A stretch of DNA of 64,000 nt from Bradyrhizobium sp. G127 (GCF_021502575.1 NZ_JAKFGN010000001.1:868001-932000), one strand, 5' to 3'. Numbered from the stretch's first letter, positions 32,718-64,000 are shown. Translations and numbers: made by a program. Notes: generated from the letters alone by a model not told the origin.

Positions 32718-32820
32718 GGGATCTCCTGTGGGTCAACGGCAACATCGGGTGCTGCCACTGACCCGGCCCGCCGATCTCAATGCGAGGGCGGGGGAGGTCC
32801 CAGTTAGGGAAAGATAGTGA

Positions 32821-34184: not shown

Positions 34185-34194
34185 TGGGTGCGAC

Positions 34195-36013: not shown

Positions 36014-36077
36014 GAAATGCGGATCATTTCGGCCGGCGCCGATCGGCGCCGGCCGCTCGTTTCTGAAAGTAGGACCT

Positions 36078-37580: not shown

Positions 37581-37642
37581 TGACGATCGGAGGATGCGAC
37601 CGGAAGGTCTCCATACGGACGTCGAAGGCCTCCTGATTGCCG

Positions 37643-38032
37643 TCAGAACGGCAGCATGGGTGCCTCGAGGTAGACTTGCCTTTTTTCGACGTCGGCCCAG
37701 GACATGTTGAAGTACACCGGCTTCCGCCCAAGGTTCGTAAAGACGTCGGCGACGCAAACGCGGTGACGGACTTCGTTGTTATCGTCGAGCAGGTCCTTCC
37801 CAACGACTCCTATTTCGCCGATCTTGAGCAACTTCAGGCCGAGCGCAGCTTGAGGCGCATTCTTGAAGGCATCCTGCAGCATGTCGCGGGTGGTGTTGCT
37901 GTTGCATTCGGGAATGCTGGCTGGGCCACCATAGCCGCCTGTTGCAAGGCGTAGCGTGGCGATGACACCTCCGAACAGAGTTGCGAACGCAATACTGGTC
38001 ATAAGGTTCGATTTTGAAAACGACATTGTCAT
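37643..38032 (-). CDS. Hypothetical protein with N-terminal signal or anchor
   Basis: 129 residues. An N-terminal hydrophobic stretch (about 10-30) could be a signal peptide or single anchor. The body contains two cysteines (IPECNS, HRVCVAD) and a beta-rich pattern ending in YLEAPMLPF. It converges with the terminase gene. No family is recognised. Confidence 0.55.
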   Translation of the reverse strand: MTMSFSKSNLMTSIAFATLFGGVIATLRLATGGYGGPASIPECNSNTTRDMLQDAFKNAPQAALGLKLLKIGEIGVVGKDLLDDNNEVRHRVCVADVFTNLGRKPVYFNMSWADVEKRQVYLEAPMLPF

Positions 38033-38139
38033 GGGTGGCTCTTTCTCTGTGGGAGTTTCGAAACGATCAGGTGATGGGCATGAGGCATCGTTCGCCGCCG
38101 CCGTTGAAAGGCGTGCGTCGAGGCGTCGAAGAGTGAGTA

Positions 38140-45540: not shown

Positions 45541-46362
45541 ATGCTAAAATTGCGTCTGGAACTCGTCGATATGATAGATGACGCGCAAATACCCCGTAAA
45601 GGACCTCAACGCTCTGGATCGGCGCGGAGTGTCGATAGCGCTTCGCGCGTTGTCGCTTCAAAAGTGAAATTTACGGGCTTGGGTGCTGATCTGATCAACC
45701 ACGAAGTAGATTATGGACCGGAGCCGGAGCTCAATCTAGCCGATAGCGCCTACCGCGCGATCGAGGAGATGATTTGCACCCTAGAACTGCAGCCAGGAGC
45801 TCGAGTTTCGGAAAGTTCTCTCGCAAAGCGTTTAGGAATCGGGCGCACGCCGGTGCGAGAGGCCTTGCAGCTGCTGTCACGCGATGGCCTTGTTGTTGTC
45901 TTGCGAAGACATGGGGTCCTCGTTAGCGAGATTGATGTCCGCACTCAGCTGCGAATTATCGAGGTTCGGCGGGCTTTAGAATCGCTCATGGTGCGCTTGG
46001 CTGCAGAACGAGCCACTGAGGAAGAAATTGCGCAATTCGCCAAAATCGCTGCCGCTATTTATGCCGCCGTTGATGCTAACGACGATCTTGCCTTCGTTCG
46101 GCTTGATTCGCAGCTAAATGAGCTACTCGCCCGCGCCTGCGGGAACCGTTTTGCTAGTGGCTCAATGAGTTTGATGACCCCGCTTTCGCGGCGTTTCTGG
46201 TATCGGAATTACAAATCTGCCGGTGACATGATGCTGGGTGCTCGTCTCCACGCTGAGATCGCTGACGCGATCGCCCGCAGGAAACCCGATGAAGCGGAGC
46301 AGGCAGTGAAGCGCTTGCTCGATTATATCGAAGATTTCTCTCGCAAAACACTGGATCGCTAG
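45541..46362 (+). CDS. GntR/FCD-family regulator
   Basis: 273 residues. A ~60-residue unstructured lead is followed by the GntR winged HTH (about 65-130, LQPGARVSESSLAKRLGIGRTPVREALQLL, in parts) and a helical FCD ligand domain. The start is uncertain; ATG 45571 (MIDDAQIP) is an alternative. It lies just after the P450 operon, probably as its local regulator, but no paired operator is recognised near 42.35 kb. Confidence 0.85.
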   Translation: MLKLRLELVDMIDDAQIPRKGPQRSGSARSVDSASRVVASKVKFTGLGADLINHEVDYGPEPELNLADSAYRAIEEMICTLELQPGARVSESSLAKRLGIGRTPVREALQLLSRDGLVVVLRRHGVLVSEIDVRTQLRIIEVRRALESLMVRLAAERATEEEIAQFAKIAAAIYAAVDANDDLAFVRLDSQLNELLARACGNRFASGSMSLMTPLSRRFWYRNYKSAGDMMLGARLHAEIADAIARRKPDEAEQAVKRLLDYIEDFSRKTLDR

Positions 46363-48084: not shown

Positions 48085-49716
48085 CTAGGGGCACCCGGCG
48101 CCCGGCAAGAACTGCCTTGTCTCATTACCCTCCGTAATCAACTCGGCAGCTTTTTCCGCCATAGCCATGATCGGCAGATTGGTATTTCCACTGATCACTG
48201 TCGGCATGATCGAACCATCGATGACTCTGAGATTGTCGATTCCTCGGACCCGCAACTGACCGTCGACAACAGCGTTGCTGTCTTCGCCCATGCGACAGGT
48301 GCCAACAGGATGGTAGATCGTTTCGGCGCGCTCCCGTATCCATTTTTTGCGGGAGTCCACACTGGTAAACGCATCGATGTCGATCCTTCGTTTCACGAAT
48401 TTACTCAGACCCGGTTGATCGATAATCTCAGACAGTTGTCTGACACCTTCTTGCATGCTGACGAAATCCGAATCATCAGAGAGAAAACGAGGATCGATAG
48501 CGGGAGTGTCAGATGGGTCCGCCGATCGCAATCGCAGTGTTCCACGGCTCTTGGGCCGAAGTTGGCAAACGCGAATCGCGAAACCGTGAGCGATGCGTTC
48601 GTTGGGTGGCGGGTTTCGGAGCGCGACGATGAGATGAGCTTGCCACTCCGGCAGTGACGAATTTTTGTCAGGCCCCCAGAAGGCGCCAGCTTCGACGCCT
48701 TGAGACGTTGCGGGACCCGTGCCTCGGAGAATGTATTGTGCGCCCGCGAGGCCGCCCTTGATCAAGCCGAGATACGGCGTCAGCGTAACTGGCTGAGATG
48801 CCTCTAGGCGAATAGCGCAGTCCAGATGGTCGTGCAGGTTGTCTCCGACGCCAGCGGAATCGAGAACGGGCTTGATGCCAAGCGATTGCAGGTGATCCGC
48901 CGGCCCGATCCCCGACAGCATCAGCAGTTGCGGTGAGCCGATGGCTCCAGATGTCAGCAACACCTCGCGCTCTGCCGAGATGGTTACCTCGCGTCCTCCC
49001 TTCTCTATTACTACGCCGCGCGCGCACGTCCCTTCCATGGCGATCCGGCGAACTCTGCAGTTGGCCATAACGGTGAGATTGCTTCGTCCCTTCGCTCGAT
49101 CAAGATATTTGAAGGCTCCGGATCGCTTCCCTTCCGCGATGGTGAGTTCGTAGAATCCGGCACCAACCTGGGACGGGCCGTTGAAGCCATTGTTCTCCGG
49201 CAAACCTGCTGACACCGCGCTTTCAATGAACGCCTTTGAAATGGGATGCTGCAGGGTGCCATAGGACAGACGAATAGGGCCGGAGTATCCCCTGTCCTGA
49301 TCGCGCTTCCTTGTGACCAGGGTGGCGTCCTCGATTTTTCTGAGGTAAGGGCGCAGGTTTTCATAGCTCCATGACGGGAGGCCCTGGGCGGCCCACGAGT
49401 CGTAGTCCCAAGCGTTGCCTCGAATCGCAATCATTGAGTTAATGGAGGACGATCCACCCACAACCCGGCCACGCGGGATGTAAATCTTTCGATTATTGAG
49501 TTGAGCTTGGGGCTCGGTCCAGAACTGCCAGTTATACTTAGGACTTGTGTAGAGCACGCGAATGCCGGCCGGCATGTGGACGAAGACAGACGCGGAGGGG
49601 GCTCCGGCCTCAAGCAGCAGGACGTTAACATTTGGATCTTCGCTCAGTCGCGAAGCCAGCACGCATCCCGCCGATCCCGCGCCGACGATGATGTAGTCAT
49701 ATCCGGATAGTTTCAT
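48085..49716 (-). CDS. GMC-family FAD oxidoreductase (alcohol or choline dehydrogenase type)
   Basis: 543 residues. The Rossmann start is YIIVGAGSAGCVLASRL, GMC signature 1 is PRGRVVGGSSSINSM, signature 2 is TSGAIGSPQLLMLSGIGP, and the active-site His is in YHPVGTCRMG with a late GNTNLP. Family members oxidise primary alcohols, choline or polyether alcohols to aldehydes. It is the likely first dehydrogenase of the pathway here; substrate is unresolved. Confidence 0.9.
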   Translation of the reverse strand: MKLSGYDYIIVGAGSAGCVLASRLSEDPNVNVLLLEAGAPSASVFVHMPAGIRVLYTSPKYNWQFWTEPQAQLNNRKIYIPRGRVVGGSSSINSMIAIRGNAWDYDSWAAQGLPSWSYENLRPYLRKIEDATLVTRKRDQDRGYSGPIRLSYGTLQHPISKAFIESAVSAGLPENNGFNGPSQVGAGFYELTIAEGKRSGAFKYLDRAKGRSNLTVMANCRVRRIAMEGTCARGVVIEKGGREVTISAEREVLLTSGAIGSPQLLMLSGIGPADHLQSLGIKPVLDSAGVGDNLHDHLDCAIRLEASQPVTLTPYLGLIKGGLAGAQYILRGTGPATSQGVEAGAFWGPDKNSSLPEWQAHLIVALRNPPPNERIAHGFAIRVCQLRPKSRGTLRLRSADPSDTPAIDPRFLSDDSDFVSMQEGVRQLSEIIDQPGLSKFVKRRIDIDAFTSVDSRKKWIRERAETIYHPVGTCRMGEDSNAVVDGQLRVRGIDNLRVIDGSIMPTVISGNTNLPIMAMAEKAAELITEGNETRQFLPGAGCP

Positions 49717-49825: not shown

Positions 49826-49868
49826 TTGTATTTGAGCCGCTTTGGAATATCATTTTGGTATGTCCAAA
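49826..49868 (+). promoter_or_regulatory. Promoter with TTTGG-N5-CCAAA operator before small ORF
   Basis: TTGTAT (49826-49831), 16 bases and TATCAT (49848-49853) make a promoter. Its start point is covered by TTTGG-TATGT-CCAAA (49854-49868). The same half-sites occur at four further positions in the cluster. It could also influence the divergent GMC gene, which starts at 49716. Confidence 0.6.
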
Positions 49869-49909
49869 TGTATTGGCTGCGGTTCTGGCGTCAACAGAGA
49901 GATGTTTCG

Positions 49910-50059
49910 ATGATCAGTCGCGTGTTGACTGCGGCGCTTGTGGTGTTGGCCTTCGTTGTTCTTCTTTGGGGACCGAAAGGCCCACAGCATTGGGATGCGA
50001 ATATGTCCCCCCAGGAGAGGGCGGTATTTGAAAAGACAGTCTGGGCCCTCGGCCATTAG
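49910..50059 (+). CDS. Small single-pass membrane protein
   Basis: A 49-residue frame from ATG 49910 with a GAGAGA site. It has one hydrophobic segment (ISRVLTAALVVLAFVVLLW) and a short soluble tail ending SPQERAVFEKTVWALGH. The promoter and operator just upstream support expression. No family is recognised. Confidence 0.5.
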   Translation: MISRVLTAALVVLAFVVLLWGPKGPQHWDANMSPQERAVFEKTVWALGH

Positions 50060-50208
50060 TTGAGACGGTATTCGTCAGAGCCCCGCCCGCTACGCATCAG
50101 CAACTCCGTCGTCAGATCTACGGGCAAACGGGAATATCGTCACGGGTGCTGCCACTGTGATTATCTCGGCCGTTCTCACTTCGTGGGTGCGAGTAGTGCA
50201 CCTTGAAC

Positions 50209-51477
50209 TTATTCGAGCCGGCTTGGTGAAGCCCGCCGCGGATGCGTGCCGGTATCGACGACCCGGCTGGCGTTCAGGCGCTGAATCTGCGCCTCGTCAA
50301 ATTTGAGAACAGTCTTGAGGACATATTCGGTGTCCTCGCCCCGTAGCGGCGGGCTCTTCGAGTATTCGATCTTCGTTCGCGAAAACTTGATAGGGTTGCC
50401 GACGAGAGGTGAAATGGCACCGGAGGAATGAGGCAGATTGATCTGCAGCTCTCTATGGATCACCTGCGGATGGGCAAATACTTGGTCCAGCCGGTTGATC
50501 GGCGCGCAAGGAACTCCGACTGGCTCAAGCACTGATATCCACTGGTGCGTCGTTTGCGTTGCTAAATGCACATCCAGAAGTGGAATGAGCAGGTCGCGAT
50601 TGTGAAGCCGATCGGTGTTCGTGAGAAAGCGGATGTCGGCTGCCAATTCCGTCAATCCCGCCGCTGCACAGAATTTCCTGAATTGTTGGTCGTTTCCGAC
50701 AGCCAGCACAAACGAGCCGTCCATTGTCTTGAACACCTGATACGGGACGATATTCGGATGCGCATTACCGGACCGTTTGGGTGGAGTTCCCGTCGTGAGA
50801 TAGTTCATGTTCTGGTTGGCAAGTACCGAAACTTGGACATCGAGCAGTGCCATGTCGATGTGTTGGCCCTCGCCGGTACGCTCGCGATGCAGCAACGCCG
50901 AAATAACGCCCGTCGCGCTGTACATACCGGTGAGAATATCGACGATCGGAACGCCAACTTTCTGCGGGCCGCCACCCGGCATATCGTCGCTTTCGCCCGT
51001 GATGCTCATCAGGCCGCCGATGGCCTGAATAGCCATGTCGTATCCTGCAGCATCCTTCATTGGGCCGGTTTGACCGTAACCCGTGATGGAGCAGTAAATG
51101 GTATCCGGCTTCAGTCTTCGCAGTGACTCGTAGTCCAGCCCGTATCGGGCCATGTCGCCGACTTTGTAATTTTCGATCACGATGTCAGCTTGTTGCGCTA
51201 GTGCGCGCACGATCGCGCTGCCTTCGTCAGTTGCTATGTCGATGCAGATTGAATGTTTGCCGCGGTTAGCGCTGAGAAAATACGCGCTCTCGGTTGTGTC
51301 ATTCGATTCGCCATCTTTCAGGAATGGGGGACCCCATTGTCGTGTGTCGTCGCCGGTGCCGGGGCGTTCGATTTTCCAGACCTCGGCTCCGAGATCGGAA
51401 AGAAGTTGGCCCAACCACGGTCCTGCGAGAATTCTTGAAAGATCGAGTACTCGGTAGCCCACCAGAGGTCCAGCCAT
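50209..51477 (-). CDS. Family III CoA-transferase (CaiB/BaiF)
   Basis: 422 residues. Opening VLDLSRILAGPWLGQLLSDLGAEV (in part) is typical, as are SANRGKHSI and GYGQTGPM, with the conserved Asp near 147 (AGYDMAIQA). These enzymes move CoA between carboxylic acids. It diverges from the ABC transporter operon with a shared 337-base control region that carries an operator. Confidence 0.9.
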   Translation of the reverse strand: MAGPLVGYRVLDLSRILAGPWLGQLLSDLGAEVWKIERPGTGDDTRQWGPPFLKDGESNDTTESAYFLSANRGKHSICIDIATDEGSAIVRALAQQADIVIENYKVGDMARYGLDYESLRRLKPDTIYCSITGYGQTGPMKDAAGYDMAIQAIGGLMSITGESDDMPGGGPQKVGVPIVDILTGMYSATGVISALLHRERTGEGQHIDMALLDVQVSVLANQNMNYLTTGTPPKRSGNAHPNIVPYQVFKTMDGSFVLAVGNDQQFRKFCAAAGLTELAADIRFLTNTDRLHNRDLLIPLLDVHLATQTTHQWISVLEPVGVPCAPINRLDQVFAHPQVIHRELQINLPHSSGAISPLVGNPIKFSRTKIEYSKSPPLRGEDTEYVLKTVLKFDEAQIQRLNASRVVDTGTHPRRASPSRLE

Positions 51478-51537
51478 GACATTTCCTTGCTATTGGCGCG
51501 ATCCGTTCCTGGTAAATCGTACGCCTGTTATAAGCGC

Positions 51538-51572
51538 ACTATAATAGGATAAACCAAATTGGACAAACCAAT
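51538..51572 (-). promoter_or_regulatory. CoA-transferase promoter with three-half-site operator
   Basis: On the minus strand, TTGTCC (51566-51561), 17 bases and TATAGT (51543-51538) form a promoter. The operator ACCAAATTGG-ACAA-ACCAAT (51553-51572) overlaps its -35 and spacer. On the plus strand TATAAT is at 51540-51545. The whole motif also occurs at 59277-59296. Confidence 0.68.
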
Positions 51573-51814
51573 AATAGCTTTTGGTTGATCGTCGAGTTGG
51601 TTTTGAGGCGAGATTCTGGAACGGAGGGTCTTCTCGAAAGTGCTTGTCGGGTTTTGATTCGCGAGCATCGCACTGCGCGAGTTGCTTGACAGCAAGTATA
51701 TGGAGACATACGGTCAGCCAAAATGGTCTATCCAAAACGGATGGCGACTGTGCGGCTTTAAGCTTGATGCATGGTGACAATAGCTAGAGGCAACGCGAAG
51801 CGAGGTTTTGCTGT

Positions 51815-52975
51815 ATGGCGCGAGTAACTCTCCAGAATGTATCGAAATCCTTTGGCGGAGATCGTGGGCCATGGGCAGTGCAGGATTTCTCATTGGATAT
51901 TACCGACGGAGAACTGGTCGTTTTTGTCGGGCCGTCCGGCTGCGGGAAGTCGACCACGTTGCGCATGCTTGCCGGCCTCGATGATGTGACATCGGGCAAG
52001 ATCATGATCGGCGGGCGGGATGTGACCGCACTCCCGCCGAAAGATCGCAATATTGCGATGGTGTTCCAGAACTACGCGCTCTATCCGCAGAAGACCGTAT
52101 ACGACAATATGGCATTTGGTCTTCGCGTGCGCGGAGAACCGAAAGACGAGATTGATCGTCGCGTGCGCAGCGCGGCGTCGAGCCTCGGCCTTGATCCTTT
52201 GCTCGAGCGGAAGCCGCGGCAGCTGTCGGGAGGTCAGATGCAGCGGGTTGCGCTTGGTCGTGCGCTCGTCCGAGACCCCGATGTCTTTCTGCTCGATGAG
52301 CCTCTTTCCAACCTCGACGCCAAGCTGCGCGTGAAGACTCGCGAAGAAATCGCGACGCTGCATGCCCGGCTCGGAGCCACGATGATCTTCGTGACTCACG
52401 ACCAGGTCGAAGCCATGACGCTCGGTGACCGGATTGTCATCATGCGCGATGGCTGGATCCAGCAGGCCGGACGGCCGCTGGATCTTTACGACCGGCCGAT
52501 GAATGTCTTTGTGGCCGCCTTCATCGGTTCGCCCGAGATGAACCTGGTTGAGGGCGATCTGCTCCGTGACGGTGATGGTCTGAAGGTTCGTTCTGGCGAA
52601 CTGCAGCTCGGATTGCCGGACGGCGAGTTTGTCGAGACCGAGAAGAGCGTCACTATCGGCATCAGACCAGAGCATATCATTCGTGCTGAAGCAGCATCCG
52701 ACATCGAGATGATCGTTAGCCTGGTCGAGCAAATCGGCGCCCAGACCTATGTGCTGGGGACGATATTCGGCCATAAATTTCGCGCGGTGTTTGCGCGCGA
52801 CGATGTGCTCGTGGCCGGGGATAAAATCCCCGTCGTTCTGCCCGCGCAGCGGCTGCATCTATTTTCACGTGAGAGTGGAAAGGCGTTGAGGCAATCAAAA
52901 TCAGTAAGTGAAATTAATATAGGGAGGGAAAATCATGACCGTGCGCAAGTCGAACCAATGGAATTCCAAGGGTAA
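51815..52975 (+). CDS. ABC transporter ATPase (MalK/UgpC type)
   Basis: 386 residues. Walker A GPSGCGKST (39-47), Q-loop, LSGGQMQRVALGRAL signature, Walker B DVFLLDEPLSNLDA and H-loop are followed by a TOBE-like C-terminal regulatory region. It energises a sugar-type importer with the following binding protein and two permeases. Its C-terminus runs 41 bases into the binding-protein gene. Confidence 0.93.
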   Translation: MARVTLQNVSKSFGGDRGPWAVQDFSLDITDGELVVFVGPSGCGKSTTLRMLAGLDDVTSGKIMIGGRDVTALPPKDRNIAMVFQNYALYPQKTVYDNMAFGLRVRGEPKDEIDRRVRSAASSLGLDPLLERKPRQLSGGQMQRVALGRALVRDPDVFLLDEPLSNLDAKLRVKTREEIATLHARLGATMIFVTHDQVEAMTLGDRIVIMRDGWIQQAGRPLDLYDRPMNVFVAAFIGSPEMNLVEGDLLRDGDGLKVRSGELQLGLPDGEFVETEKSVTIGIRPEHIIRAEAASDIEMIVSLVEQIGAQTYVLGTIFGHKFRAVFARDDVLVAGDKIPVVLPAQRLHLFSRESGKALRQSKSVSEINIGRENHDRAQVEPMEFQG

Positions 52976-54296
52976 ATCATTCGGCTTTAGCCGACGGGGC
53001 TTCCTCAAAACGTCCGCGGGAGCAGTGGTTGGAGCGACAAGCTCCCTGGCGGCTCCGTACGTGAATGCTCAAGCCGGAGTGACGCTCCGATTTCTGAACA
53101 ATGAAACTGCGGCCGACAGCCAGGCCGTGCTGCGACGCGCATGCGGCGCGTACGAGAGCAAGTTCGGTGTTAAGATCATCGTCGATTCGACGCCGATCAG
53201 CGGCGCATATGCGAAGACGATGGCGGCGATCAATGCCGGCACGCCGTATGACATCTCCACTCAAGGCTATATCGCCCATATTCTGCAGTACGCCCGCGGC
53301 GGTCATCTTCTTCCGATGACCGATCTTGTGAAGCAGCATTCCTGGGGGCAGATGGGCGCCTGGAAGTATCAGGGAGAGAACTGGTTCTATCCTTACGACT
53401 ACAATCTGGTGACCTGTTACTATCGGAAGGATCTGTATGCCGAGAAGGGCCTTAAGATTCCTAATACATGGTCGGAATATCTCGACAACTGCCGGGCGCT
53501 GACTGTCTCAAAGGACGGCAATATCGAACGTGGCGGCTGCGTAATGCCGCTGGCGAGCGACAGTGCGACCAACTGGGCGAGCTTCGGAAACCTGTTTGCG
53601 GAAGCTCCGCAATTCTATGACGACAAATGGAATGTCGTTCTGGATGCACCTGAGAATGCGGATCGGACAGCGCGTTTCCTCGATCTTTACGGCGAACTCT
53701 ACAAGACTATGCCCCCCGGATTGAACACGGTGGGTTATGCCGAGCTCATGAGTCTGTTTGTCACTGGAAAGGTCGCGCATACCCTGTATTCCGGGCGTGT
53801 GGTCGAGGCGCTCGAGGCGCGAAATCCGGATCTCGCGAGCAAGTATGGCATCTTTGCCGCACCAGACAGTGCGGGCAAGCAGAAAGCGCTGCCGTTCTCC
53901 TTCGACGGATTTGTTGCATTCAAGACCAAGCAAAGCGAGGAGACGCTCAAGTTCCTCAAATGGTTTATCGATGAGCACTACGTCGACTGGCTGCATTCGG
54001 CTTGGATGAACTTCCAGCCGGTGCGATTAGACATTTACGAGGATCCGCGCTGGAAGAAGCACCCGATGATTCAGAAGCATTGGGCAACAATGATGCAGAT
54101 GAAGTCGTTCATCGATCCGGACAGCAAGGTGAGGCTCTCGTCGGTCGACTTGATCGGCCCATCGATTGATCTGCTGCCGAGCAAGGTCTTCGATGCGAAC
54201 GTCATGCCTGAGATGTTGCAAAATAAGGTGCTTAAGAACATGTCATCGGCCGATTGCGTGAAAACAGCGGCCAATCGCATCCGGAAGCTTGGTTGA
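52935..54296 (+). CDS. ABC transporter solute-binding protein (family 1, Tat signal)
   Basis: 453 residues. The N-terminus has SRRGFLKTSAGAVVG, a twin-arginine motif, with probable cleavage near AAPYVNAQA. The mature part contains a carbohydrate-type binding fold (TLRFLNNETAADSQAVLRRACGAYESKF in parts; late EETLKFLKWF). It overlaps the ATPase and permease genes, so one transporter operon is clear. The ligand cannot be read from sequence. Confidence 0.9.
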   Translation: MTVRKSNQWNSKGKSFGFSRRGFLKTSAGAVVGATSSLAAPYVNAQAGVTLRFLNNETAADSQAVLRRACGAYESKFGVKIIVDSTPISGAYAKTMAAINAGTPYDISTQGYIAHILQYARGGHLLPMTDLVKQHSWGQMGAWKYQGENWFYPYDYNLVTCYYRKDLYAEKGLKIPNTWSEYLDNCRALTVSKDGNIERGGCVMPLASDSATNWASFGNLFAEAPQFYDDKWNVVLDAPENADRTARFLDLYGELYKTMPPGLNTVGYAELMSLFVTGKVAHTLYSGRVVEALEARNPDLASKYGIFAAPDSAGKQKALPFSFDGFVAFKTKQSEETLKFLKWFIDEHYVDWLHSAWMNFQPVRLDIYEDPRWKKHPMIQKHWATMMQMKSFIDPDSKVRLSSVDLIGPSIDLLPSKVFDANVMPEMLQNKVLKNMSSADCVKTAANRIRKLG

Positions 54297-54324
54297 ATTA
54301 TTCGGACAAGAAGGTAGGTACCTT

Positions 54325-55197
54325 ATGAGGCAGGATTGGCGGATCATCAGCTTGTTCGTTGGCGGCGTTTTGATACTCGGCGCCATCGTTGGCGGGCCAC
54401 TCCTGTACTCTATCAAGCTCTCGTTCTACGCGGCGGAGTCCTTTATCGCTCCGCCGCGATGGGTGGGACTTGGGAATTATCTGGCCGTCCTGGAGGACAG
54501 GAATTTTTGGGACGCGTTGCTAAACGGGATAGTAATTTCTATTTCCGCGATCGTGTTGCAGGTCATGCTCGGCGTGACCATTGCGCTCGTTCTGAATCGT
54601 CAGTTCGTGGGACAAACGGTCGTTCGCGCGCTGTCGATCGTTCCTTATTTTCTTCCGACGGTAGTTGCGTGCCTTATTGCGCAATGGATGCTCGATCCGA
54701 ATTACGGATTGATTAAAAGTATCTTGGCGTCGTTTGGATCCAGCATGTTTGATTGGGGCGCCAACTCGGCAACCGCAAAAGGAACGATTGTTCTCGTTAG
54801 TGTGTGGATATGGACACCATTTGTGGTGACGTGCGTGCTGGCCGGCCTGCAAACAATTCCGGCCCAGCTTTACGAAGCAGCTAGGGTCGACGGCGCCGGT
54901 GCCTGGAAGCAGTTCTGGCACATCACTCTGCCGGGCCTCAGACCTGTACTGATCGTGGTCATTCTGCTGAGAGGCATCTGGATGTTCAACAAGTTTGACG
55001 TGATCTGGTTGTTGACCAAGGGGGGGCCGCTGAATCAGACGGAGACGCTCCCGACGCTTGCTTATCGAAGAGCTTTTCTGGAGTTCGATCTCGGAGGGGG
55101 GGCGGCGGTAGCGACAATCTCGTTTGCGATTCTGGCAACCATTATGCTGATTTATCTGCGGTTTTTCCCGATCGATGAAGCAAAGCAAGGCCGATAA
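54325..55197 (+). CDS. ABC transporter permease (MalF/UgpA type)
   Basis: 290 residues from ATG 54325; a TTG 12 codons earlier in the same frame overlaps the binding-protein gene. It has six hydrophobic segments and the EAARVDGAGAWKQFWHITLPGL coupling loop (in part), which docks the ATPase. The gene is followed directly by the second permease. Confidence 0.9.
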   Translation: MRQDWRIISLFVGGVLILGAIVGGPLLYSIKLSFYAAESFIAPPRWVGLGNYLAVLEDRNFWDALLNGIVISISAIVLQVMLGVTIALVLNRQFVGQTVVRALSIVPYFLPTVVACLIAQWMLDPNYGLIKSILASFGSSMFDWGANSATAKGTIVLVSVWIWTPFVVTCVLAGLQTIPAQLYEAARVDGAGAWKQFWHITLPGLRPVLIVVILLRGIWMFNKFDVIWLLTKGGPLNQTETLPTLAYRRAFLEFDLGGGAAVATISFAILATIMLIYLRFFPIDEAKQGR

Positions 55198-55199
55198 CA

Positions 55200-56180
55200 G
55201 TGACACAACAGAACTCGCACTTTTCCATCGTTGCTGCTGTTGCTGACCCGCGGCAGGAGCGACTCCTTCGCAGCACGTCCCAGTTCGATCGTTTGCCGCA
55301 GGAAGCTTCAACACCTGCATCAGAACAGAAGTTGTTCGGCATTGTGGGCAAGCCAATCAAGCAGATTGCCGGGCGTATCGGTCTCTACGCGGCTGTTCTC
55401 GTGATCTGCATCTACTCGTTCTTTCCAATTTACTGGATGATTGTATCTAGTCTTCGGCCCGCGCAGCGGTTGTTTCTGGACACGTCGTTGGTGTTCTGGC
55501 CGCCAGATCTCGCTTCCTACAGATCCCTACTGGAGCTTACGAATTACACGACCAATTTTTTCAACAGCGCCCTGATGGCGATGGCAACGATCATCGTTGC
55601 TACAACGCTTTCGGCGTTCATTGCCTACGGCGCGACGCGGCTGCGGTTCCGCGGCAAGACAACATTAGTCGCGTCCATGTTGTTTGCCTATATGTTCCCG
55701 CCGTTGATGCTGGTCATTCCAATGTCAGCTTTGTTCCGCATGGTCGGGCTTTCCGACAGCCTGTGGGGTCTGCTGATTGCTCATCTCGCAATATCACTCC
55801 CGTTGGGCGTCTGGCTTCTGTGGGGCTTTTTCAAGTCGGTGCCATTTGACCTGGAAGAAGCAGCAATGGTCGATGGGTGCTCGCAGTTCAGTGCGTTCCT
55901 CAAGGTTGTCTTGCCGCTTTCCGCACCGGGTCTGATTACGGTCGGTATCTTCTCGTTCCTGCTTTCCTGGGCCGACTACGTGTTCGCTCTCATCCTGATC
56001 ATGAGCGATCAGAACAAGACGCTTCCTGTCGCCTTGGCGTCGATGTTGGGGGCACAGGATCTGCGTTGGGGCGAGATCCTTGCCGGCGCATCGCTCATAG
56101 CGCTGCCGCTGTTTGTCATCTTTACGTTCTGCTACCGCTACTTCGTCGCAGGACTTACGGCAGGCGCCCTTAAAGGGTAG
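55200..56180 (+). CDS. ABC transporter permease (MalG/UgpE type)
   Basis: 326 residues from GTG 55200. An unusually long N-terminus of ~60 polar residues precedes six hydrophobic segments; the coupling loop is EEAAMVDGCSQFSAFLKVVLPL (in part). It completes the importer: ATPase, binding protein and two permeases. The N-terminal extension is atypical for MalG-like proteins and a later start near residue 65 is possible. Confidence 0.87.
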   Translation: MTQQNSHFSIVAAVADPRQERLLRSTSQFDRLPQEASTPASEQKLFGIVGKPIKQIAGRIGLYAAVLVICIYSFFPIYWMIVSSLRPAQRLFLDTSLVFWPPDLASYRSLLELTNYTTNFFNSALMAMATIIVATTLSAFIAYGATRLRFRGKTTLVASMLFAYMFPPLMLVIPMSALFRMVGLSDSLWGLLIAHLAISLPLGVWLLWGFFKSVPFDLEEAAMVDGCSQFSAFLKVVLPLSAPGLITVGIFSFLLSWADYVFALILIMSDQNKTLPVALASMLGAQDLRWGEILAGASLIALPLFVIFTFCYRYFVAGLTAGALKG

Positions 56181-56790
56181 GTGGTATTCTAGGCCCAGGA
56201 CACATATATTTTCTCGCGGATTGAAAGGATAACTGGTTCATTAGCGGCGCGCGGAGGCGTTGCAATGACTGTTTTTTGTTGTCGAAGGCGCAGATGCGCA
56301 GGATCCGCAGAAGACGATCTACAACAAGGCGCGAATGCTGGTTATCACTGCGCTAGCAAACAAATAGGCGCGCACGGTGTGAGCATTGTTCGCGCTTAAC
56401 GAAGTTTACCGAGCTCCCGCCGAGGCCGCCGCATAAGCAGCGTCGCAACGCGAGGTTGTCGATGGAGTAAAGGGCGAAGGCAGGTACGGCGCAACAGTCG
56501 ATGAGACGGGATCGGCATAACCCGATAGACTCACCCGGCTTCCAAGCACGCAGCTCTGATATGGAGTCGGTCCGCGAGCTCTCATACGGGCTTGCGGCAT
56601 CTTATGGTCGCATCATGAGGTAGGATAGATGACAGCGCCCGACTAAAGCGCGAATGTCAAAATCCCTATTGTTTCTCCGGGGAGTCCGCAGATGAGCCTA
56701 GATGCCGCCCTGGCAAGGGATCAGTTCTGTATCCGGCCGCGCCACGAAGGATTCGAGCGGTTCGCTCGGATGGGATCTTTTGACGAGAGC
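56181..56790. other. Intergenic between permease and regulator, no gene recognised
   Basis: About 600 bases. A short plus-strand stretch ending at a TAG at 56365-56367 (VEGADAQDPQKTIYNKARM) looks protein-like but lacks a start and has no known family, so it may be a gene remnant. The minus-strand frame at 56406-56600 shows no family signature. The permease and regulator converge here. Confidence 0.4.
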
Positions 56791-57522
56791 CTATCGTCTT
56801 GCGAGTATTTTTGGCTCTCCCAACAGCGTCTCCCAAGTTTCTATGGTCTGGGACAGGTGCTCATTCATTTTCTGTTCTGCCTGACCGACGCGACGCCCCT
56901 CAATGGCATCAAGAATCTTGCAGTGATCTTCATAGGAGCTGCGACCGCGGTTGCGATCGGAAAAATAGATGCGGCGGCGTTGTCTGGATAGTTCATAGAA
57001 TGATTTTACGACGCGGAGCAGGATATCATTTTTGGTGGCGGCAAAGATGGCCAGGTGAAATGCTTCATCTTCAAGCTCGATCGTCTGCTTTCTGGAGAGG
57101 CGCTTCTCGGTGTCGTTCAGAATGGTGCGAAGATCGCAGATGTTGGCAGATGTCCTACGAGTGCAGGCCAATCTGGCGGCCTGCACTTCGAGCATGCGTC
57201 GCACCTCGAAGACATCGGCGATTTCGTTTGACTGGAAAAGAAGGCCTGACTCGGCATAAAGGACGAGAGCCTCGATGCTGCTTTCGTTTGAATTTCGCAG
57301 GTATATGCCAGAGTTTGGCCGTCTCTCGATGACACGCATGGCTTCGAGAGCAGCCAGCGCCTCACGGACAGCGCCGCGACTTGTGTCGAACTTCTCTGCG
57401 AAGTCTCGTTCGGACGGTAGACGTTCAGCGGGCTGATAGTGGCGCTCGCGGATGAACGAGAGGATTTTTCCGATGGTGTTCGAGGGAGGCTCAGGATTGT
57501 TGGTTCGATTTCGTTCTGTCAT
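56791..57522 (-). CDS. FadR-type GntR regulator, candidate regulator of the catabolic cluster
   Basis: 243 residues. A winged HTH (about 15-80, IREAHY-like IRERHYQPAERLPSERDFAEKF then RGAVREALAALEA) is followed by a helical FCD domain. TTGGT-type operators occur on five intergenic regions nearby, one at the gor start. FCD regulators bind ATTGGTnnnACCAAT-type sites, so this is the best candidate repressor. Ligand unknown. Confidence 0.87.
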   Translation of the reverse strand: MTERNRTNNPEPPSNTIGKILSFIRERHYQPAERLPSERDFAEKFDTSRGAVREALAALEAMRVIERRPNSGIYLRNSNESSIEALVLYAESGLLFQSNEIADVFEVRRMLEVQAARLACTRRTSANICDLRTILNDTEKRLSRKQTIELEDEAFHLAIFAATKNDILLRVVKSFYELSRQRRRIYFSDRNRGRSSYEDHCKILDAIEGRRVGQAEQKMNEHLSQTIETWETLLGEPKILARR

Positions 57523-57718
57523 TGCGTTTACTCTTTCTAGCCTGCGTCCAGGGAAGCCCGTCTGCTAAGCCGCCGCGCACCCGGGTGCCTGCAGATAGCC
57601 ACCAATCTGAGTGATGTTCACTCTAGTCGATAGTTGATGATGTTGCAGTTACTTTGCGCGAATCCCGATCCGCAGGATAATAACGCTCTGCTAATTACGT
57701 CTTCGCACGGTCGATCGC

Positions 57719-57758
57719 TTGATTCCGGCGTACTGGTTATATAAGATTGGTATACCAA
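57719..57758 (+). promoter_or_regulatory. gor promoter with perfect TTGGTATACCAA operator
   Basis: TTGATT (57719-57724), 17 bases and TAAGAT (57742-57747) form a promoter. The perfect palindrome TTGGTATACCAA (57747-57758) lies on the transcription start, 32 bases before the gene start. A repressor bound here would block initiation. Confidence 0.75.
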
Positions 57759-57789
57759 ATAGGTACGACCGAAAAGAGCGCGCACTGGT

Positions 57790-59175
57790 ATGTCTGATTT
57801 TGATGTCGATCTGTTTGTGATCGGCGGCGGTTCGGGTGGCGTTCGCGCCGCGCGGATCGCGGCCAGTTACGGTGCCAAGGTTATGCTTGCCGAAGAGTAT
57901 CGCATGGGCGGCACCTGCGTGATCCGCGGTTGCGTGCCGAAGAAGCTGTTCGTCTACGCCTCGCACGTCCGTGAGGAAATCAGCGACGCTGCGGGTTTCG
58001 GATGGAGCATCCCCTCCGCGACGTTCGACTGGCCGGTGCTGGTCGCCAACAAGGATAAGGAAATCGCACGATTGGAGGCCGCCTATACGGCCAATGCCGA
58101 GAAGGCCGGGGCGCGGGTCGTCAAGGCTCGTGCGGTGTTCGAGGATGCGTATACGCTGCGCCTTTCGACCGGCGAAACGGTGCGGGCGAGATACATCCTG
58201 GTCGCCACCGGAAGCGCGCCGAGCCACGGCGCGGCCATTCCGGGCATCGAGCACGTCATCTCGTCGAACGAGGTCTTCCACCTGCCGACATTCCCGAAAC
58301 GCATCGTGATCCAGGGTGGCGGCTACATCGCGCTGGAGTGTGCCTGCATCTTCGCCGGCCTCGGCTCCGACGTGACGCTGGTCTATCGCGGCGACAACAT
58401 TCTGCGGGGGTTCGACGAGGACGTCCGCGCGCATGTGCGCGGAGAGGTCGAGAAGGCGGGTATCACCATTCTCACCGGCTGCACGGTGAGCAAGATCGAG
58501 AAGCACGGCGAGGTCTTCACCGCGTATCTGTCGGAAGGATCGCGCATCGCGGCCGATCAGGTGCTGTTCGCCATCGGCCGTCATCCGAACGTCAAGGGTC
58601 TCGGGCTCGAGAAGGCCGGCGTGGCGCTCGGTCCGACCAATGGCGGCATCGCCGTCGACAGCTTCTCACAAAGCAATGTGTCGCACATCTATGCGGTGGG
58701 CGACGTCACCAACCGGATCAATCTCACGCCGGTTGCGATCCGCGAAGGACATGCCTTCGCCGATACGGTGTTTGGCAAGCGTCCAGTACGCGTCGATCAT
58801 CTCGATATTTCGACTGCGGTGTTCTCACAGCCGCAGGTAGGAACGGTCGGGCTGACCGAAGCCGAGGCGAGGGCGCGGTTCACTCACGTGGACATCTACA
58901 AGACCGATTTCAGGCCGATCAAGGCAACACTGTCGGGTAGCGGAGCTCGCGTCCTGATGAAGCTGATCGTGGATGGAACATCCGATCGCGTTATCGGGTG
59001 TCACATTGTCGGGCCGGAAGCCGCCGAGATCGTTCAGGCTGTTGCCATCGCTGTTAAGATGAAGGCGACCAAGGCTGATTTCGACGCCACCATGGCGCTG
59101 CACCCCACCTCTGCGGAGGAACTCGTGACCATGCGCACGCCGACGCAGCGTCACGTTCGCCAAGCGGCGGAATAG
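57790..59175 (+). CDS. gor: Glutathione reductase-type flavoprotein
   Basis: 461 residues. FAD site GGGSGGVRAAR, redox pair Cys43-Cys48 (GTCVIRGC), NAD(P)H site IQGGGYIALE, ATPV-like AVGDVTN, and the active-site HPTSAEE with His near 438. It matches glutathione-disulphide reductase. Its placement under the cluster operator, not near unrelated core genes, suggests a thiol-linked step in this pathway. Confidence 0.9.
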   Translation: MSDFDVDLFVIGGGSGGVRAARIAASYGAKVMLAEEYRMGGTCVIRGCVPKKLFVYASHVREEISDAAGFGWSIPSATFDWPVLVANKDKEIARLEAAYTANAEKAGARVVKARAVFEDAYTLRLSTGETVRARYILVATGSAPSHGAAIPGIEHVISSNEVFHLPTFPKRIVIQGGGYIALECACIFAGLGSDVTLVYRGDNILRGFDEDVRAHVRGEVEKAGITILTGCTVSKIEKHGEVFTAYLSEGSRIAADQVLFAIGRHPNVKGLGLEKAGVALGPTNGGIAVDSFSQSNVSHIYAVGDVTNRINLTPVAIREGHAFADTVFGKRPVRVDHLDISTAVFSQPQVGTVGLTEAEARARFTHVDIYKTDFRPIKATLSGSGARVLMKLIVDGTSDRVIGCHIVGPEAAEIVQAVAIAVKMKATKADFDATMALHPTSAEELVTMRTPTQRHVRQAAE

Positions 59176-59273
59176 GCAGCTCAGAACTGTCTTTCCGCCC
59201 TGACATACCGGACGTCAGAAATCTGCGGATCGGCGCGGACTTGTCAAATACGGGTTGACAGGACTTAGTTAAA

Positions 59274-59296
59274 TATACCAAATTGGTATTACCAAT
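59274..59296. promoter_or_regulatory. Double palindromic operator before acyl-CoA ligase
   Basis: ATACCAA-A-TTGGTAT (59275-59289) and ATTGGTA-T-TACCAAT (59282-59296) are two perfect 15-base palindromes sharing one half-site. The unit ACCAAATTGG-TATT-ACCAAT matches the CoA-transferase operator except for the 4-base spacer. Confidence 0.75.
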
Positions 59297-59410
59297 ACGG
59301 CGAATAATTTCAATGATGGCGAACGCGCATCCCGCTATGACGAATTTTCATCGCGACGCGGATGCCGGTTGTTGAGTTTCAGCCCTGACCGGGAAGATGG
59401 ATCGGCGAAA

Positions 59411-60952
59411 ATGGATTTGATATCAAACCTGCCGCCCCGCATTCACGAGATACTTGATGAGGGTGCAAGGGGGGACGTTTCTCGCGTTGCGTTTACCGAC
59501 GAACATGGTGTCGTATGGTCTTATCGCCGTCTGATCGACACGGTCGAGCTTGTTGCCATTGAAATGAGCCGGCTCGGTATTCGTCCGGGCGATCGAGTCA
59601 TGATCGTGTGTGAAAATTCAATCGCGGCAATCGTATTGCTGTATGCGTTGAGTCGAATCGACGCATGGGCGGTCGTCACAAACGCGCGGCTCAGTCAGCA
59701 TGAGTTGGACTTGATCGAGAACGACTGCCAACCGCGGCGTGTGTTCTATACTCATGCTATTTCACCTGAGGCAGATGCTCATGCATGTCGCCGGCGTGCC
59801 GATATCGAGTCGTTCATCGGGATAGGTGAGATGAAAATCGGAAGGCTTGATGCAGATTCTGTCGCGGAAAGGGTTCATCGGGATTCCTCACGGCAGGTTG
59901 CCGTTGTTATCTATAAGACGGGCACCACCGGGCGCCCAAAAGGAGTGATGCTTAGTCATCGCAGCCTTGCGTTTGTCGCGTGCCGCGGCAAAAGAACCGA
60001 TACAATTCGTTCGGACGACGTCTCGCTGTGCGTGATGCCGATTTCCCATTCGTATGGGCTTACGCTCTTGCAGGGCATGCTTTTTGCGGGTGCGCATCTG
60101 AGAATCATGCCAAGATTCGCACTTGCGCAGGCGATCGATGCCATCGCCGACGGGGCGCTTACGATTTTTGCCACCGTACCAGCGTTGCTGTCGCGTATCG
60201 TCGCTCACGTCGATCAAGCTGGCCTTCAGCTCACACCGAACAGGCTCCGATATGTTTATAGTGGTACCGCTCCGCTGGACCTTTCATTGCGCCAGAACGT
60301 CGAACGTGTGTTCGGGGTGGTTCTCCACAATGGTTATGGTCTCACCGAAACGTCGCCCACGATCAGCCGGACGCAGTACGCAATGGGCAGAGACGAAGTC
60401 AACATTGGTCCCCCCATCCCAGGAGTCGAGATCAAGATTGTCGGAGCGGACGGTCATGAGGTTGAAGAGGGTTTGCCGGGAGAACTTCTCGTGCGAGGAC
60501 CAAATGTCATGCTTGGCTATTATGGCCAGCCGGAGCTTACCGCAGAGGTTATCGATGAGCAGGGCTATTTGAAGACCGGCGATATTGTCAGCCGCAATAC
60601 GAGCGGCGAATTGATCGTCCAAGGCCGATCAAAGGAATTGATCATTCGCTCGGGGTTCAATGTGTACCCGCCTGAGATCGAAGCGGTTCTCAACACGCAT
60701 CCGACGGTTCTCAACTCTGCCGTCGTTGGACGATCGGTTGAGGGCAATGAGGAGATCATAGCCTTTGTGCAGCCGGTTCCTGGAGGTTCCGTCGAGACCA
60801 ACGACCTGTTCACGTTCATCGAGGGACAGTTGGCCAGATACAAGAAGCCTCAGCAGATCATCGTGATGCAGCAGCTGCCGGTCGCGCCAAACGGCAAGAT
60901 CAGAAAGCATGATTTGAAGAAGTACGCTGAAGCGTCGGCGCTTTCGGTCTAG
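59411..60952 (+). CDS. Class I adenylate-forming acyl-CoA ligase-like enzyme
   Basis: 513 residues from ATG 59411; the 14-codon TTG extension is not preferred. The AMP-binding P-loop is TGTTGRPKG, the adenine loop GYGLTETSP, and the catalytic Lys is in the final GKIRKHDLKK. The family activates a carboxylate as acyl-AMP then acyl-CoA. It probably activates an acid made by the following aldehyde dehydrogenase. Confidence 0.88.
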   Translation: MDLISNLPPRIHEILDEGARGDVSRVAFTDEHGVVWSYRRLIDTVELVAIEMSRLGIRPGDRVMIVCENSIAAIVLLYALSRIDAWAVVTNARLSQHELDLIENDCQPRRVFYTHAISPEADAHACRRRADIESFIGIGEMKIGRLDADSVAERVHRDSSRQVAVVIYKTGTTGRPKGVMLSHRSLAFVACRGKRTDTIRSDDVSLCVMPISHSYGLTLLQGMLFAGAHLRIMPRFALAQAIDAIADGALTIFATVPALLSRIVAHVDQAGLQLTPNRLRYVYSGTAPLDLSLRQNVERVFGVVLHNGYGLTETSPTISRTQYAMGRDEVNIGPPIPGVEIKIVGADGHEVEEGLPGELLVRGPNVMLGYYGQPELTAEVIDEQGYLKTGDIVSRNTSGELIVQGRSKELIIRSGFNVYPPEIEAVLNTHPTVLNSAVVGRSVEGNEEIIAFVQPVPGGSVETNDLFTFIEGQLARYKKPQQIIVMQQLPVAPNGKIRKHDLKKYAEASALSV

Positions 60953-60986
60953 TCATTCCAAATCGTTTAATCCCCATCGAAGGCCA

Positions 60987-62447
60987 ATGGACATCGCCAT
61001 GAAGCAGGAACGGACCTATCCGGACGTCAAAATGTTCATCGACGGGGCCTGGTGCGACGGGTCGCAAGGCAAAACTGGGGCCGTGCTGAATCCAGCGACC
61101 GGGCTTGCGATTGGGTGTGTTCCGCACGCTTCTATTGACGACCTTGATCGCGCGTTGGATGCCGCATCACGCGGCTTCAGTATATGGCGCAAGACGTCGG
61201 CGTTCGACCGCTACAAGCTCATGCGGTCGGCTGCCGAAAAGCTGCGCGAGCGGTCCGGTGAAATCGCTCGCATTCTTACGCTCGAGCAGGGAAAGCCCCT
61301 GGCGGAAGCGAAGCTGGAGGTGCTGCTCGGCGCGGACATCATCGACTGGTTTGCCGAGGAAGCTCGTCGATCCTACGGCCGCGCTATTCCTTCGCGTTCT
61401 GAGGGGGTGCAGCAATTCGTGATCAAGGAGCCGGTCGGGCCGGTGGCGGCGTTCACGCCGTGGAATTTTCCGATCAATCAGGCCGTCCGCAAGATCTCTG
61501 CTGCAATCGCGGCTGGTTGCTCCGTGATTCTCAAGGGGCCAGAGGAGACACCGGCCAGTTGCGCTGCTCTGGTGCAGGCCTACGCCGATGCCGGTCTGCC
61601 ACCCGGCGTGCTCAATCTGGTTTTCGGCGTGCCCGCTGAGGTATCTTCCTATCTGATCGCTCACCCGCTCATTCGCAAGATTTCCTTCACCGGCTCGACC
61701 CAGGTCGGCAAGCAGCTTGCCGCTCTGGCGGGAAGCCATATGAAGCGTGTGACGATGGAATTGGGAGGCCATGCGCCGGCGCTCGTGTTCGGCGATGCGG
61801 ACGTGAAGGAGTCAGCCAGACTGCTGTCTGCAGCGAAGTTCAGGAACGCCGGCCAAGTTTGCGTCTCGCCCACGCGTTTCATCGTGCACAAAAGCGTCTA
61901 CGAGGAGTTCGTCGATCACTTCACGTCGGCTGCGAAGAATCTGGTCGTTGGCGACGGTCTTGATGCAGCGAGCCAGATGGGTCCGCTGGCCAATCATCGC
62001 CGCATAGAGGCGATGGAGGCCTTTATCGCCGACGCTATCTCGCGCGGCGGACGCGTCAGAGCGGGCGGAAAGAGAATCAGAAACGAGGGATTCTTCTTCG
62101 AGCCGACAGTTCTTACGGATGTCTCGCTGAACGCGCGCATCATGAACGAAGAGCCCTTCGGCCCCGTCGCCCCGATCAGCGCCTTCTCTGATCTGGATGA
62201 GGCCATAGCGGAGGCAAATCGTCTTCCATTTGGCCTCGCTGCCTATGCCTACACCAAATCGGCTTCCGTCATTGCTGCCATCAGCACGGGAGTCGAAAGC
62301 GGAATGATGTCGGTGAACCATCATGGCCTTGCGCTACCTGAAACGCCGTTTGGGGGCATCAAGGACTCCGGTTATGGCTCGGAGGGAGGGATCGAAGCCA
62401 TGGAGGCCTACTTGAACACCAAGTTCATAACTCAAATGAACGGTTAG
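60987..62447 (+). CDS. NAD(P)-dependent aldehyde dehydrogenase (succinate-semialdehyde type)
   Basis: 486 residues. Motifs are FTPWNFPINQ, ELGGHAP (active-site Glu) and NAGQVCVSPTRF (nucleophile Cys). They fit the SSADH-like ALDH group. It is 34 bases after the ligase gene, so likely in the same operon. It probably oxidises the aldehyde produced by the GMC enzyme. Confidence 0.92.
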   Translation: MDIAMKQERTYPDVKMFIDGAWCDGSQGKTGAVLNPATGLAIGCVPHASIDDLDRALDAASRGFSIWRKTSAFDRYKLMRSAAEKLRERSGEIARILTLEQGKPLAEAKLEVLLGADIIDWFAEEARRSYGRAIPSRSEGVQQFVIKEPVGPVAAFTPWNFPINQAVRKISAAIAAGCSVILKGPEETPASCAALVQAYADAGLPPGVLNLVFGVPAEVSSYLIAHPLIRKISFTGSTQVGKQLAALAGSHMKRVTMELGGHAPALVFGDADVKESARLLSAAKFRNAGQVCVSPTRFIVHKSVYEEFVDHFTSAAKNLVVGDGLDAASQMGPLANHRRIEAMEAFIADAISRGGRVRAGGKRIRNEGFFFEPTVLTDVSLNARIMNEEPFGPVAPISAFSDLDEAIAEANRLPFGLAAYAYTKSASVIAAISTGVESGMMSVNHHGLALPETPFGGIKDSGYGSEGGIEAMEAYLNTKFITQMNG

Positions 62448-62662
62448 CCTCACGCCGGCAATCGCTTGGCCTCGAAAGAGGCGCGAGATTCCCTCGCGAA
62501 ATCAAACTCTGAAGATGTTCAGAAACCTGAATCTGCGGGCTCGCTTGGCTGTGTCCGCATCAACGAAACGCGGGCCCAGCCACTGCAATGGTGGTCTACG
62601 GCGATGATGAAATCGAGCAGCCATTGAGTATGCGCTTGACAAAAAGCATCGTTTGGGTCTTT

Positions 62663-62675
62663 TTGGTAAGACCAA
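62663..62675. promoter_or_regulatory. TTGGT-AAG-ACCAA operator before FAD oxidase
   Basis: The palindrome TTGGTAAGACCAA is followed by TTTGG, giving a third half-site as in two other operators here. TTGACA lies upstream at 62636-62641. It is about 110 bases before the FAD-oxidase start. Confidence 0.6.
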
Positions 62676-62784
62676 TTTGGAAGGATCGGTAGGCTACCGT
62701 AGGTTTCTTTCCCGAGTGTCGGGAAGATGAATCAGTTCGGGTGGCTTTCTAGTTTAACACGAGCGAGAAGCAAGGAGCGAAGCA

Positions 62785-64000
62785 ATGAATGCACCGATAA
62801 GCGCGCCAAAGGGGCGCAGGAAGTTCTGGAGCTGGGGCTACGAAGGCCAGGATATCCCGCAGTCTGAAGTCGATTCGATGCACGAGCGGGTTGCGAAGCG
62901 CCTCGGGATGACCGACTTCACGATTCTCACAGATCCGACTCTTGACGAAATTGAGCTTCGTGCTCCGCGGATTCAGCCACCCGCCTCTTTGGCGAGTTTT
63001 TGCACAACCGAAAAATGGGATCGCGTTGCTCACACGTACGGCAAGAGCTTCCGCGACCTGGCAATGATCTACAAGCGCAAGTATCCGAATCCGCCGGACA
63101 TCGTGGCGTATCCTCGCGACGAAAAGGATATTGCGGCCGTTCTCGACTGGTGCGGCGAAAATGGGTACGCGGCCGTGCCTTTCGGTGGCGGATCGAGTGT
63201 CACAGGCGGTATCAATCCGCCGGATGACGGTCGCTACAAAGGAATCGTGACGATTGACCTTGAGAATTTTAACCAGGTGCTTGAGGTGGATCCGATTTCA
63301 CGCGCCGCTCGCATTCAAGGCGGCACGTTCGGTCCGTCGCTTGAGGCGCAGTTGAAGCCGCACGGGTTCACGTTACGCCATATTCCCCAATCTTGGGAGT
63401 TTTCGACCCTCGGCGGTTGGATCGCCACGCGCTCCTCCGGGCATTATGCGACCCACCTGACGCACATCGACGATATGGTGGAAAGTCTGCGCGTTGTGAC
63501 GCCGACCGGCACCATTGAGAACCGCCGTTTGCCGGGATCCGGCGCCGGCCCGAATCCTGACCGCGCCTTTATTGGTTCGGAAGGAACCCTCGGTATCATC
63601 ACAGAGGCGTGGATGCGTCTGCAGGGTCGGGTGGTCTTTCGTGCCAATGCTTCTGTCTCCTTCAAGACCTTTTACGAGGGGGCAAAGGCCGTTCGCCAGA
63701 TCACCCAGGCAGGTCTCTATCCTGCAAACTGCAGGTACCTGGATGAGAAGGATGCTTTCTTCTATGGAGCTGGCGATGGCACCGAGTCTATGCTCTTGAT
63801 CGGTTATGAGTCGGCGGATCATCCGGTCGATGCGTGGTTGGAACGGTCTCTAGAGATTTGCCGAGACTTTGGTGGCACGGTGAAGCAAAAGGCCGGATCC
63901 GGTGGCGAGGCCCTCGAAACCAGTCGCTCGGGTGCGCAGGGGAGTTGGCGCAATCAGTTCCGATATCTTCCGTATCTCATGCATGTGCGTGCGGCGATGG
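62785..64000 (+). CDS. FAD-binding oxidase, vanillyl-alcohol-oxidase fold (partial)
   Basis: The frame from ATG 62785 (AAGGAG before it) is open to the window end. It begins MNAPISAPKGRRKFWSWGY and contains the FAD-binding motif VPFGGGSSVTGG, then a second FAD segment with IGSEGTLGIITEAW. The N-terminal part resembles alkyl-dihydroxyacetone-phosphate synthase-like oxidases. Family members oxidise hydroxy-acids or handle alkyl-ether chemistry. The C-terminus is missing. Confidence 0.87.
   Translation, partial: MNAPISAPKGRRKFWSWGYEGQDIPQSEVDSMHERVAKRLGMTDFTILTDPTLDEIELRAPRIQPPASLASFCTTEKWDRVAHTYGKSFRDLAMIYKRKYPNPPDIVAYPRDEKDIAAVLDWCGENGYAAVPFGGGSSVTGGINPPDDGRYKGIVTIDLENFNQVLEVDPISRAARIQGGTFGPSLEAQLKPHGFTLRHIPQSWEFSTLGGWIATRSSGHYATHLTHIDDMVESLRVVTPTGTIENRRLPGSGAGPNPDRAFIGSEGTLGIITEAWMRLQGRVVFRANASVSFKTFYEGAKAVRQITQAGLYPANCRYLDEKDAFFYGAGDGTESMLLIGYESADHPVDAWLERSLEICRDFGGTVKQKAGSGGEALETSRSGAQGSWRNQFRYLPYLMHVRAAM

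Follow-up and report, generated by a model that had tools for sequence, protein, structure and literature searches.

A predicted FCD/GntR regulon marked by conserved TTGG...CCAA sites over a probable glycol-ether catabolic cluster

The promoter regions of a catabolic gene cluster in Bradyrhizobium sp. G127 carry a set of TTGG...CCAA palindromes. They lie in the 64,000-nucleotide stretch analysed here (NZ_JAKFGN010000001.1:868001-932000), referred to as the window. Judged from comparative sequence evidence, the sites are predicted, with a probability of roughly 80%, to be the operators of one local regulon under the FCD/GntR regulator encoded at 56791-57522, and possibly also under its 78%-identical paralogue. 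The tag is retained with the cluster across distant bacteria, so the regulon looks real, and of an ordinary kind. The genes of the cluster are:

48085..49716, minus strand: GMC alcohol oxidoreductase (Pfam), 81% identical to a Sphingopyxis macrogoltabida plasmid protein
49910..50059, plus strand: small ORF (MISRVLTAALVVLAFVVLLW...), 49 aa, one hydrophobic segment, predicted membrane protein
50209..51477, minus strand: Family III (CaiB-like) CoA-transferase (Pfam)
51815..56180, plus strand: ABC transporter operon with ugpC-type ATPase, solute-binding protein and two permeases (Pfam)
56791..57522, minus strand: FadR/GntR regulator with FCD domain (FCD1; Pfam)
57790..59175, plus strand: glutathione-disulfide reductase, gor (NCBIfam TIGR01424, above cut-off)
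59369..60952, plus strand: AMP-forming acyl-CoA ligase, 73% identical to a Sphingopyxis macrogoltabida plasmid enzyme
60987..62447, plus strand: aldehyde dehydrogenase (Pfam)
62785..64000, plus strand: FAD-linked oxidase (Pfam), continuing beyond the window end (544 aa in L076)

ORFs of about 50 aa resembling that at 49910-50059 occur at the equivalent place in the relatives L098-L100, and the ORF is conserved in Afipia. Starting the ORF at 49769 is unlikely to be right, since this would place operator 1 within it. Upstream of the catabolic region, resolvase/recombinase and terminase-like genes (30129-38868) may be remnants of a mobile element or prophage.

The original prediction named five TTGG-type sites, and all five sequences are present where it placed them. 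A pattern search finds TTGG-N5-CCAA exactly at window positions 49855, 51559, 59283 and 62663. The shared arms are thus 5 nt apart in four of the sites, while the fifth, TTGGTATACCAA at 57747, is exact with a 4-nt spacer, so its geometry differs from the others. A longer form had been attributed to two sites, and sites 2 and 4 indeed have ACCAAATTGGNNNNACCAAT in common, letter for letter; the extended form CCAAATTGG-N5-CCAA occurs in sites 2, 4, 5 and 2b. The set of five was incomplete: it lacked the site at 51718-51735 (2b) and several beyond the window end. The operators, together with a promoter-like element at one of them, are:

49855..49867: operator 1, TTGGTATGTCCAA, between the divergent GMC oxidoreductase gene (minus) and the small membrane-protein ORF of about 49 aa (plus)
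51545..51571: operator 2, tandem pair TAGGATAAACCAA-A-TTGGACAAACCAA, in the CoA-transferase/transporter divergent region
51718..51735, plus strand: operator 2b, CCAAAATGGTCTATCCAA, upstream of ugpC and the ABC transporter operon
57719..57747, plus strand: promoter-like TTGATT-N17-TAAGAT of gor, placed by eye, its second hexamer abutting operator 3
57747..57772: operator 3, tandem TTGG-TATA-CCAA-A-TAGGTACGACCGA, a 4-nt-spacer site followed by a 5-nt-spacer site, before gor
59278..59295, plus strand: operator 4, CCAAATTGGTATTACCAA, before the operon of acyl-CoA ligase and aldehyde dehydrogenase, kept in the lineages examined
62663..62680, minus strand: operator 5, CCAAATTGGTCTTACCAA, 21 bp after TTGACA and upstream of the FAD oxidase

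Beyond the window end there are sites in front of a second FAD oxidase and the GST gene that follows it (937601), ahead of an oligopeptide-type ABC transporter (941286-941312) and, with a 4-nt spacer (950428), before another gene for a GMC oxidoreductase in the neighbourhood of the paralogous regulator. One further candidate, TTGGCTCTCCCAA at 56811, was rejected as an operator; it has a GC core, lies within the regulator coding sequence and is probably coincidental.

The sites exceed chance expectation. Over the whole window a spacer of 5 gives five exact TTGG/CCAA matches and every other spacer none to two. The intergenic DNA of the cluster (2,270 bp) holds four TTGG-N5-CCAA sites. Its dinucleotide shuffles average 0.028, and a count of four was not reached in any of 5,000. 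With up to one mismatch, four copies of the 18-mer form of the motif are found in the same DNA and none in 1,000 shuffles. The genome-wide motif scan suggested with the original prediction, run as pattern searches with the reverse complement searched separately, gave a divided answer. The bare 13-bp core is common (52 sites, where the reversed control has 27) and was therefore discarded as a regulon marker, while the 18-mer with at most one mismatch occurs just seven times in 4.76 Mb, six of these within one 22-kb stretch at the locus (G000:C1:919554 to 941312, from the cluster to just beyond the window end). This concentration answers the objection that the motif might be scattered at random density.

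The same confinement is seen across a genus. Among 29 Afipia genomes, 13 contain the exact 18-mer, in 31 copies that all lie at the cluster. The carriers include every one of the 11 genomes whose regulator is at least 76% identical, and each of these 11 has two to six copies. Where the 18-mer shares a contig with the regulator gene, it is never more than 16.2 kb away; the other three copies are on contigs that each hold only part of the cluster (G025:C576, G017:C240 and G018:C82). The remaining 16 genomes lack the exact 18-mer, including G021, which has a 61% regulator homologue. G017 and G018 were considered as cases of motif without regulator and dismissed, both contigs ending inside the cluster. 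Even with these two counted as exceptions, a Fisher test of regulator against motif gives p = 2e-6, a value to be taken as a guide only because the genomes share ancestry. That the sites are chance palindromes in AT-rich intergenic DNA, as the 52 bare 13-mers per genome might suggest, is refuted by this genus-wide confinement; the shuffle test and the conservation at equivalent promoters also speak against it, and its likelihood is negligible.

Sites also stand at equivalent promoters in close relatives (L097-L100, proteins 86–97% identical) and in a version of the cluster at 74–85% identity. The latter is found nearly unchanged in records from Afipia, Bradyrhizobium, Reyranella, Steroidobacteraceae and Hyphomicrobiaceae. 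In both groups the CoA-transferase/ABC pair and the ligase are preceded by sites, and in part of these lineages so are the GMC gene, gor and the FAD oxidase. The position of operator 1 is occupied in L098, L099 and L100; operator 2 is conserved in Afipia lineages, L102, L105, L111, L113 and the plasmids, and operator 2b in L098-L100, L102, L109 and L113. More distant versions, at about 60–75%, reside on plasmids of Xanthobacter dioxanivorans, Aminobacter and Pseudorhizobium flavum, with regulators at 60–64%. All three have sites in front of the FAD oxidase and of the CoA-transferase/ABC pair; on the Aminobacter and Pseudorhizobium flavum plasmids the ligase and the regulator are preceded by sites too. 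Among the most distant relatives (61–65% regulator) the 13-bp core alone survives. The Sphingopyxis macrogoltabida EY-1 plasmid, which has homologous enzymes together with an AraC-family regulator, lacks any exact 13-mer, and no 18-mer is found there even with two mismatches allowed. The motif accompanies the cluster from genus to genus and onto plasmids, and is missing where the homologous enzymes come under another regulator. The original proposal of one FadR/GntR (FCD) regulon over the cluster is supported by this comparison, in so far as sites recur at the same promoters in the relatives examined.

A side observation concerns the 74–85% version (L102-L111), whose identity to the window is nearly constant although its hosts (Bradyrhizobium, Reyranella, Steroidobacteraceae, Hyphomicrobiaceae and Afipia) are distantly related. 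Near-constant identity in such hosts suggests that this version has spread horizontally, and recently.

The architecture of the operators was derived from 51 sites chosen on the 18-mer alone, which are related sequences, some of them overlapping, and hence not independent. Their consensus is TTGGTnnnACCAA. An additional signal that had not been selected for, T(T)GG, appears at -9 to -6; TGG is found at offset -8 in 19 of the 51, at -7 in 9 and at +20 in 13, with other offsets at 0–4. The half-sites thus alternate as TTGG-N5-CCAA-N-TTGG-N5-CCAA with a period of 14 bp. Before gor, the tandem TTGG-N4-CCRA-A-TTGG-N5-CCRA is recognisable, with small variations, in eight lineages, so that the perfect palindrome seen at 57747 is exact as described and is the left half of a conserved pair, rather than the whole operator. 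Spacers of both 4 and 5 nt therefore occur. In the GntR family, additional half-sites are found 7–12 nt from the palindrome centre, and the FadR-subfamily consensus is TKGT-N3-ACMA (PMC4494728). The palindrome TTGGTnnnACCAA fits that consensus, in agreement with the earlier statement that FCD regulators bind such sequences, and both it and the 4-nt-spacer form at gor match TKGT-N2/3-ACMA. The third half-sites noticed earlier likewise correspond to the published FadR-subfamily form; what had been overlooked is that the operators are tandem.

The protein encoded at 56791-57522 has an N-terminal GntR winged helix-turn-helix (PF00392, E 4.4e-14) and a C-terminal FCD domain (PF07729, E 3.6e-26), in which the putative metal ligands Asp-x3-His and two more His are kept in all aligned orthologues. 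It falls below the NCBIfam cut-offs (NanR, the best, 120.8 bits vs 260; LldR 99.6 vs 311), and identification as PdhR, LldR, GlcC, NanR or FadR was rejected on these curated thresholds. With the PdhR/LldR/GlcC-type regulators of the FadR subfamily it shares the GntR winged helix-turn-helix plus FCD, an operator of the TTGGTnnnACCAA type with GT-N3-AC spacing, and weaker half-sites beside the palindrome (PMC4494728); it differs in its predicted regulon, a probable glycol-ether catabolic set, and in the 14-bp-period tandem palindromes.

The paralogue (G000:C1:951133-951855; L077:1133-1864) lies about 25 kb from the regulator. Close to it are 4-nt-spacer sites, a further GMC oxidoreductase, a further acyl-CoA ligase and a fragment resembling gor. 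The helix-turn-helix stretch RLPSERDFAEKFDTSRGAVREAL is identical in FCD1 and the paralogue where they are aligned, and nearly so in 60% orthologues, so the assignment of the sites to one protein is not unique. Since the two genes are also within 26 kb of each other, each with sites nearby, it is possible, though not the favoured reading, that the paralogue is the main reader of the sites, or that both proteins read them, as two inputs to one operator set. Against this, most relatives found have the FCD1 orthologue alone inside the cluster and still keep the sites, and it is FCD1, not the paralogue, that travels with the cluster. A second FCD/GntR regulator (FCD2, 45541-46362) is located beside P450 and ferredoxin reductase genes, followed by a transposase fragment. 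Same family and proximity would make it a candidate, and a very improbable one: its recognition region reads GIGRTPVREAL where FCD1 has DTSRGAVREAL, and it is unmatched in the site-bearing clusters of the relatives examined, apart from DNA that agrees with the window in full. It was rejected as owner of the sites on its helix-turn-helix sequence.

FCD1 thus remains the favoured reader, and its dimer would recognise TTGGTnnnACCAA. Neighbouring half-sites, at the 14-bp period, make up a further palindrome of lesser strength, which would give most operators room for two adjacent dimers. Sitting on or beside promoter elements, the regulator most likely represses the cluster. The functions held down would be ABC transport, the oxidation of alcohol and aldehyde by the GMC and aldehyde dehydrogenase enzymes, CoA activation by ligase and CoA-transferase, glutathione reductase and the step of the AGPS-like FAD oxidase and GST. 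Repression would be lifted when the putative metal-binding FCD domain takes up a carboxylate intermediate of glycol-ether or PEG breakdown, for example alkoxyacetate or glycolate. Binding by the FCD1 protein, repression, the identity of the effector and the exact substrate are all points that we infer.

Of the steps in this scheme, the sign of control is the least secure. The element TTGATT-N17-TAAGAT before gor is conserved in aligned Afipia relatives and is not among the matches of a consensus promoter scan; a second element, TTGTCC-N17-TATAGT, has its -35 inside operator 2. The scan itself found four promoters in the region against 6.3 expected, with no enrichment, so promoter placement is suggestive only. 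Some FadR-family proteins are activators, and the real start sites may be placed differently relative to the operators; an activating or dual role is unlikely, given that the sites overlap or abut these promoter-like elements at operators 2 and 3, elements which are themselves not enriched.

Neither the pathway, of the glycol-ether/PEG type, nor the full extent of the regulon was recognised in the original prediction. The closest comparison is the EY-1 plasmid of Sphingopyxis macrogoltabida, a species known for PEG degradation, whose genes, by their make-up, would be PEG genes. The GMC enzyme (81%), ligase (73%), FAD oxidase (73%) and GST (58% identical) are alike, whereas the aldehyde dehydrogenase is only 34% identical, and EY-1 has an AraC-family regulator and TonB receptor in place of the FCD regulator and ABC transporter found here. 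The cluster thus probably serves the breakdown of glycol ethers such as PEG. The closest solved relatives of the FAD oxidase are alkyldihydroxyacetonephosphate (ether-lipid) synthases. Two FAD oxidases of this ether-lipid-synthase-like kind are present in L076 (L076:785-2419, 7718-9355, 9348-10082), one followed directly by a GST gene; taken with the glutathione reductase in the regulon, they hint at a glutathione-linked ether-cleavage step.

The conjugative plasmid of X. dioxanivorans YN2 has the same enzyme, transporter and regulator families, with operators before CoA-transferase/ugpC and the FAD oxidase. It differs in its regulator (62% identical), its aldehyde dehydrogenases (34–35% identical) and its gene order, which is glcF-glcE-glcD-GST-FADox-ALDH-ligase-gor-ALDH. 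On dioxane, the YN2 genes GE05986 (glcF), GE05987 (glcE), GE05988 (glcD) and the aldehyde dehydrogenase genes GE05991 and GE05994 rise 1.3- to 4.3-fold, and GE05990 is among the most upregulated genes picked for RT-qPCR (PMC8508750). Matched by gene order, GE05986-GE05994 would be the genes of the plasmid cluster, and the Xanthobacter version therefore appears to be induced by 1,4-dioxane. Both aldehyde dehydrogenase genes were termed constitutive and are highly expressed on citrate (PMC8508750); any repression may accordingly be incomplete.

No description of this regulon was found in the literature searched, most subscription journals being outside its reach, and searches there for PEG or diethylene glycol with GntR, and for Afipia with PEG, gave nothing relevant; nor did that literature yield phenotype data for this strain. 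The regulon appears new, under a regulator family that is well known, and the system is not of a new kind. A bolder picture, which we consider doubtful, is that of a portable glycol-ether regulon in which two FCD dimers bind cooperatively to 14-bp-period tandems and two paralogues share the operators. If true, paralogues with the same reading head and different sensor domains would give two chemical inputs to one pathway. The analysis proposes a regulator, an operator and a probable pathway for a cluster present in Afipia, Bradyrhizobium, Reyranella, Hyphomicrobiaceae and several plasmids, one of them from a 1,4-dioxane degrader. The 18-mer provides a simple marker for this cluster, and ether-carboxylate intermediates are what the regulator might sense.
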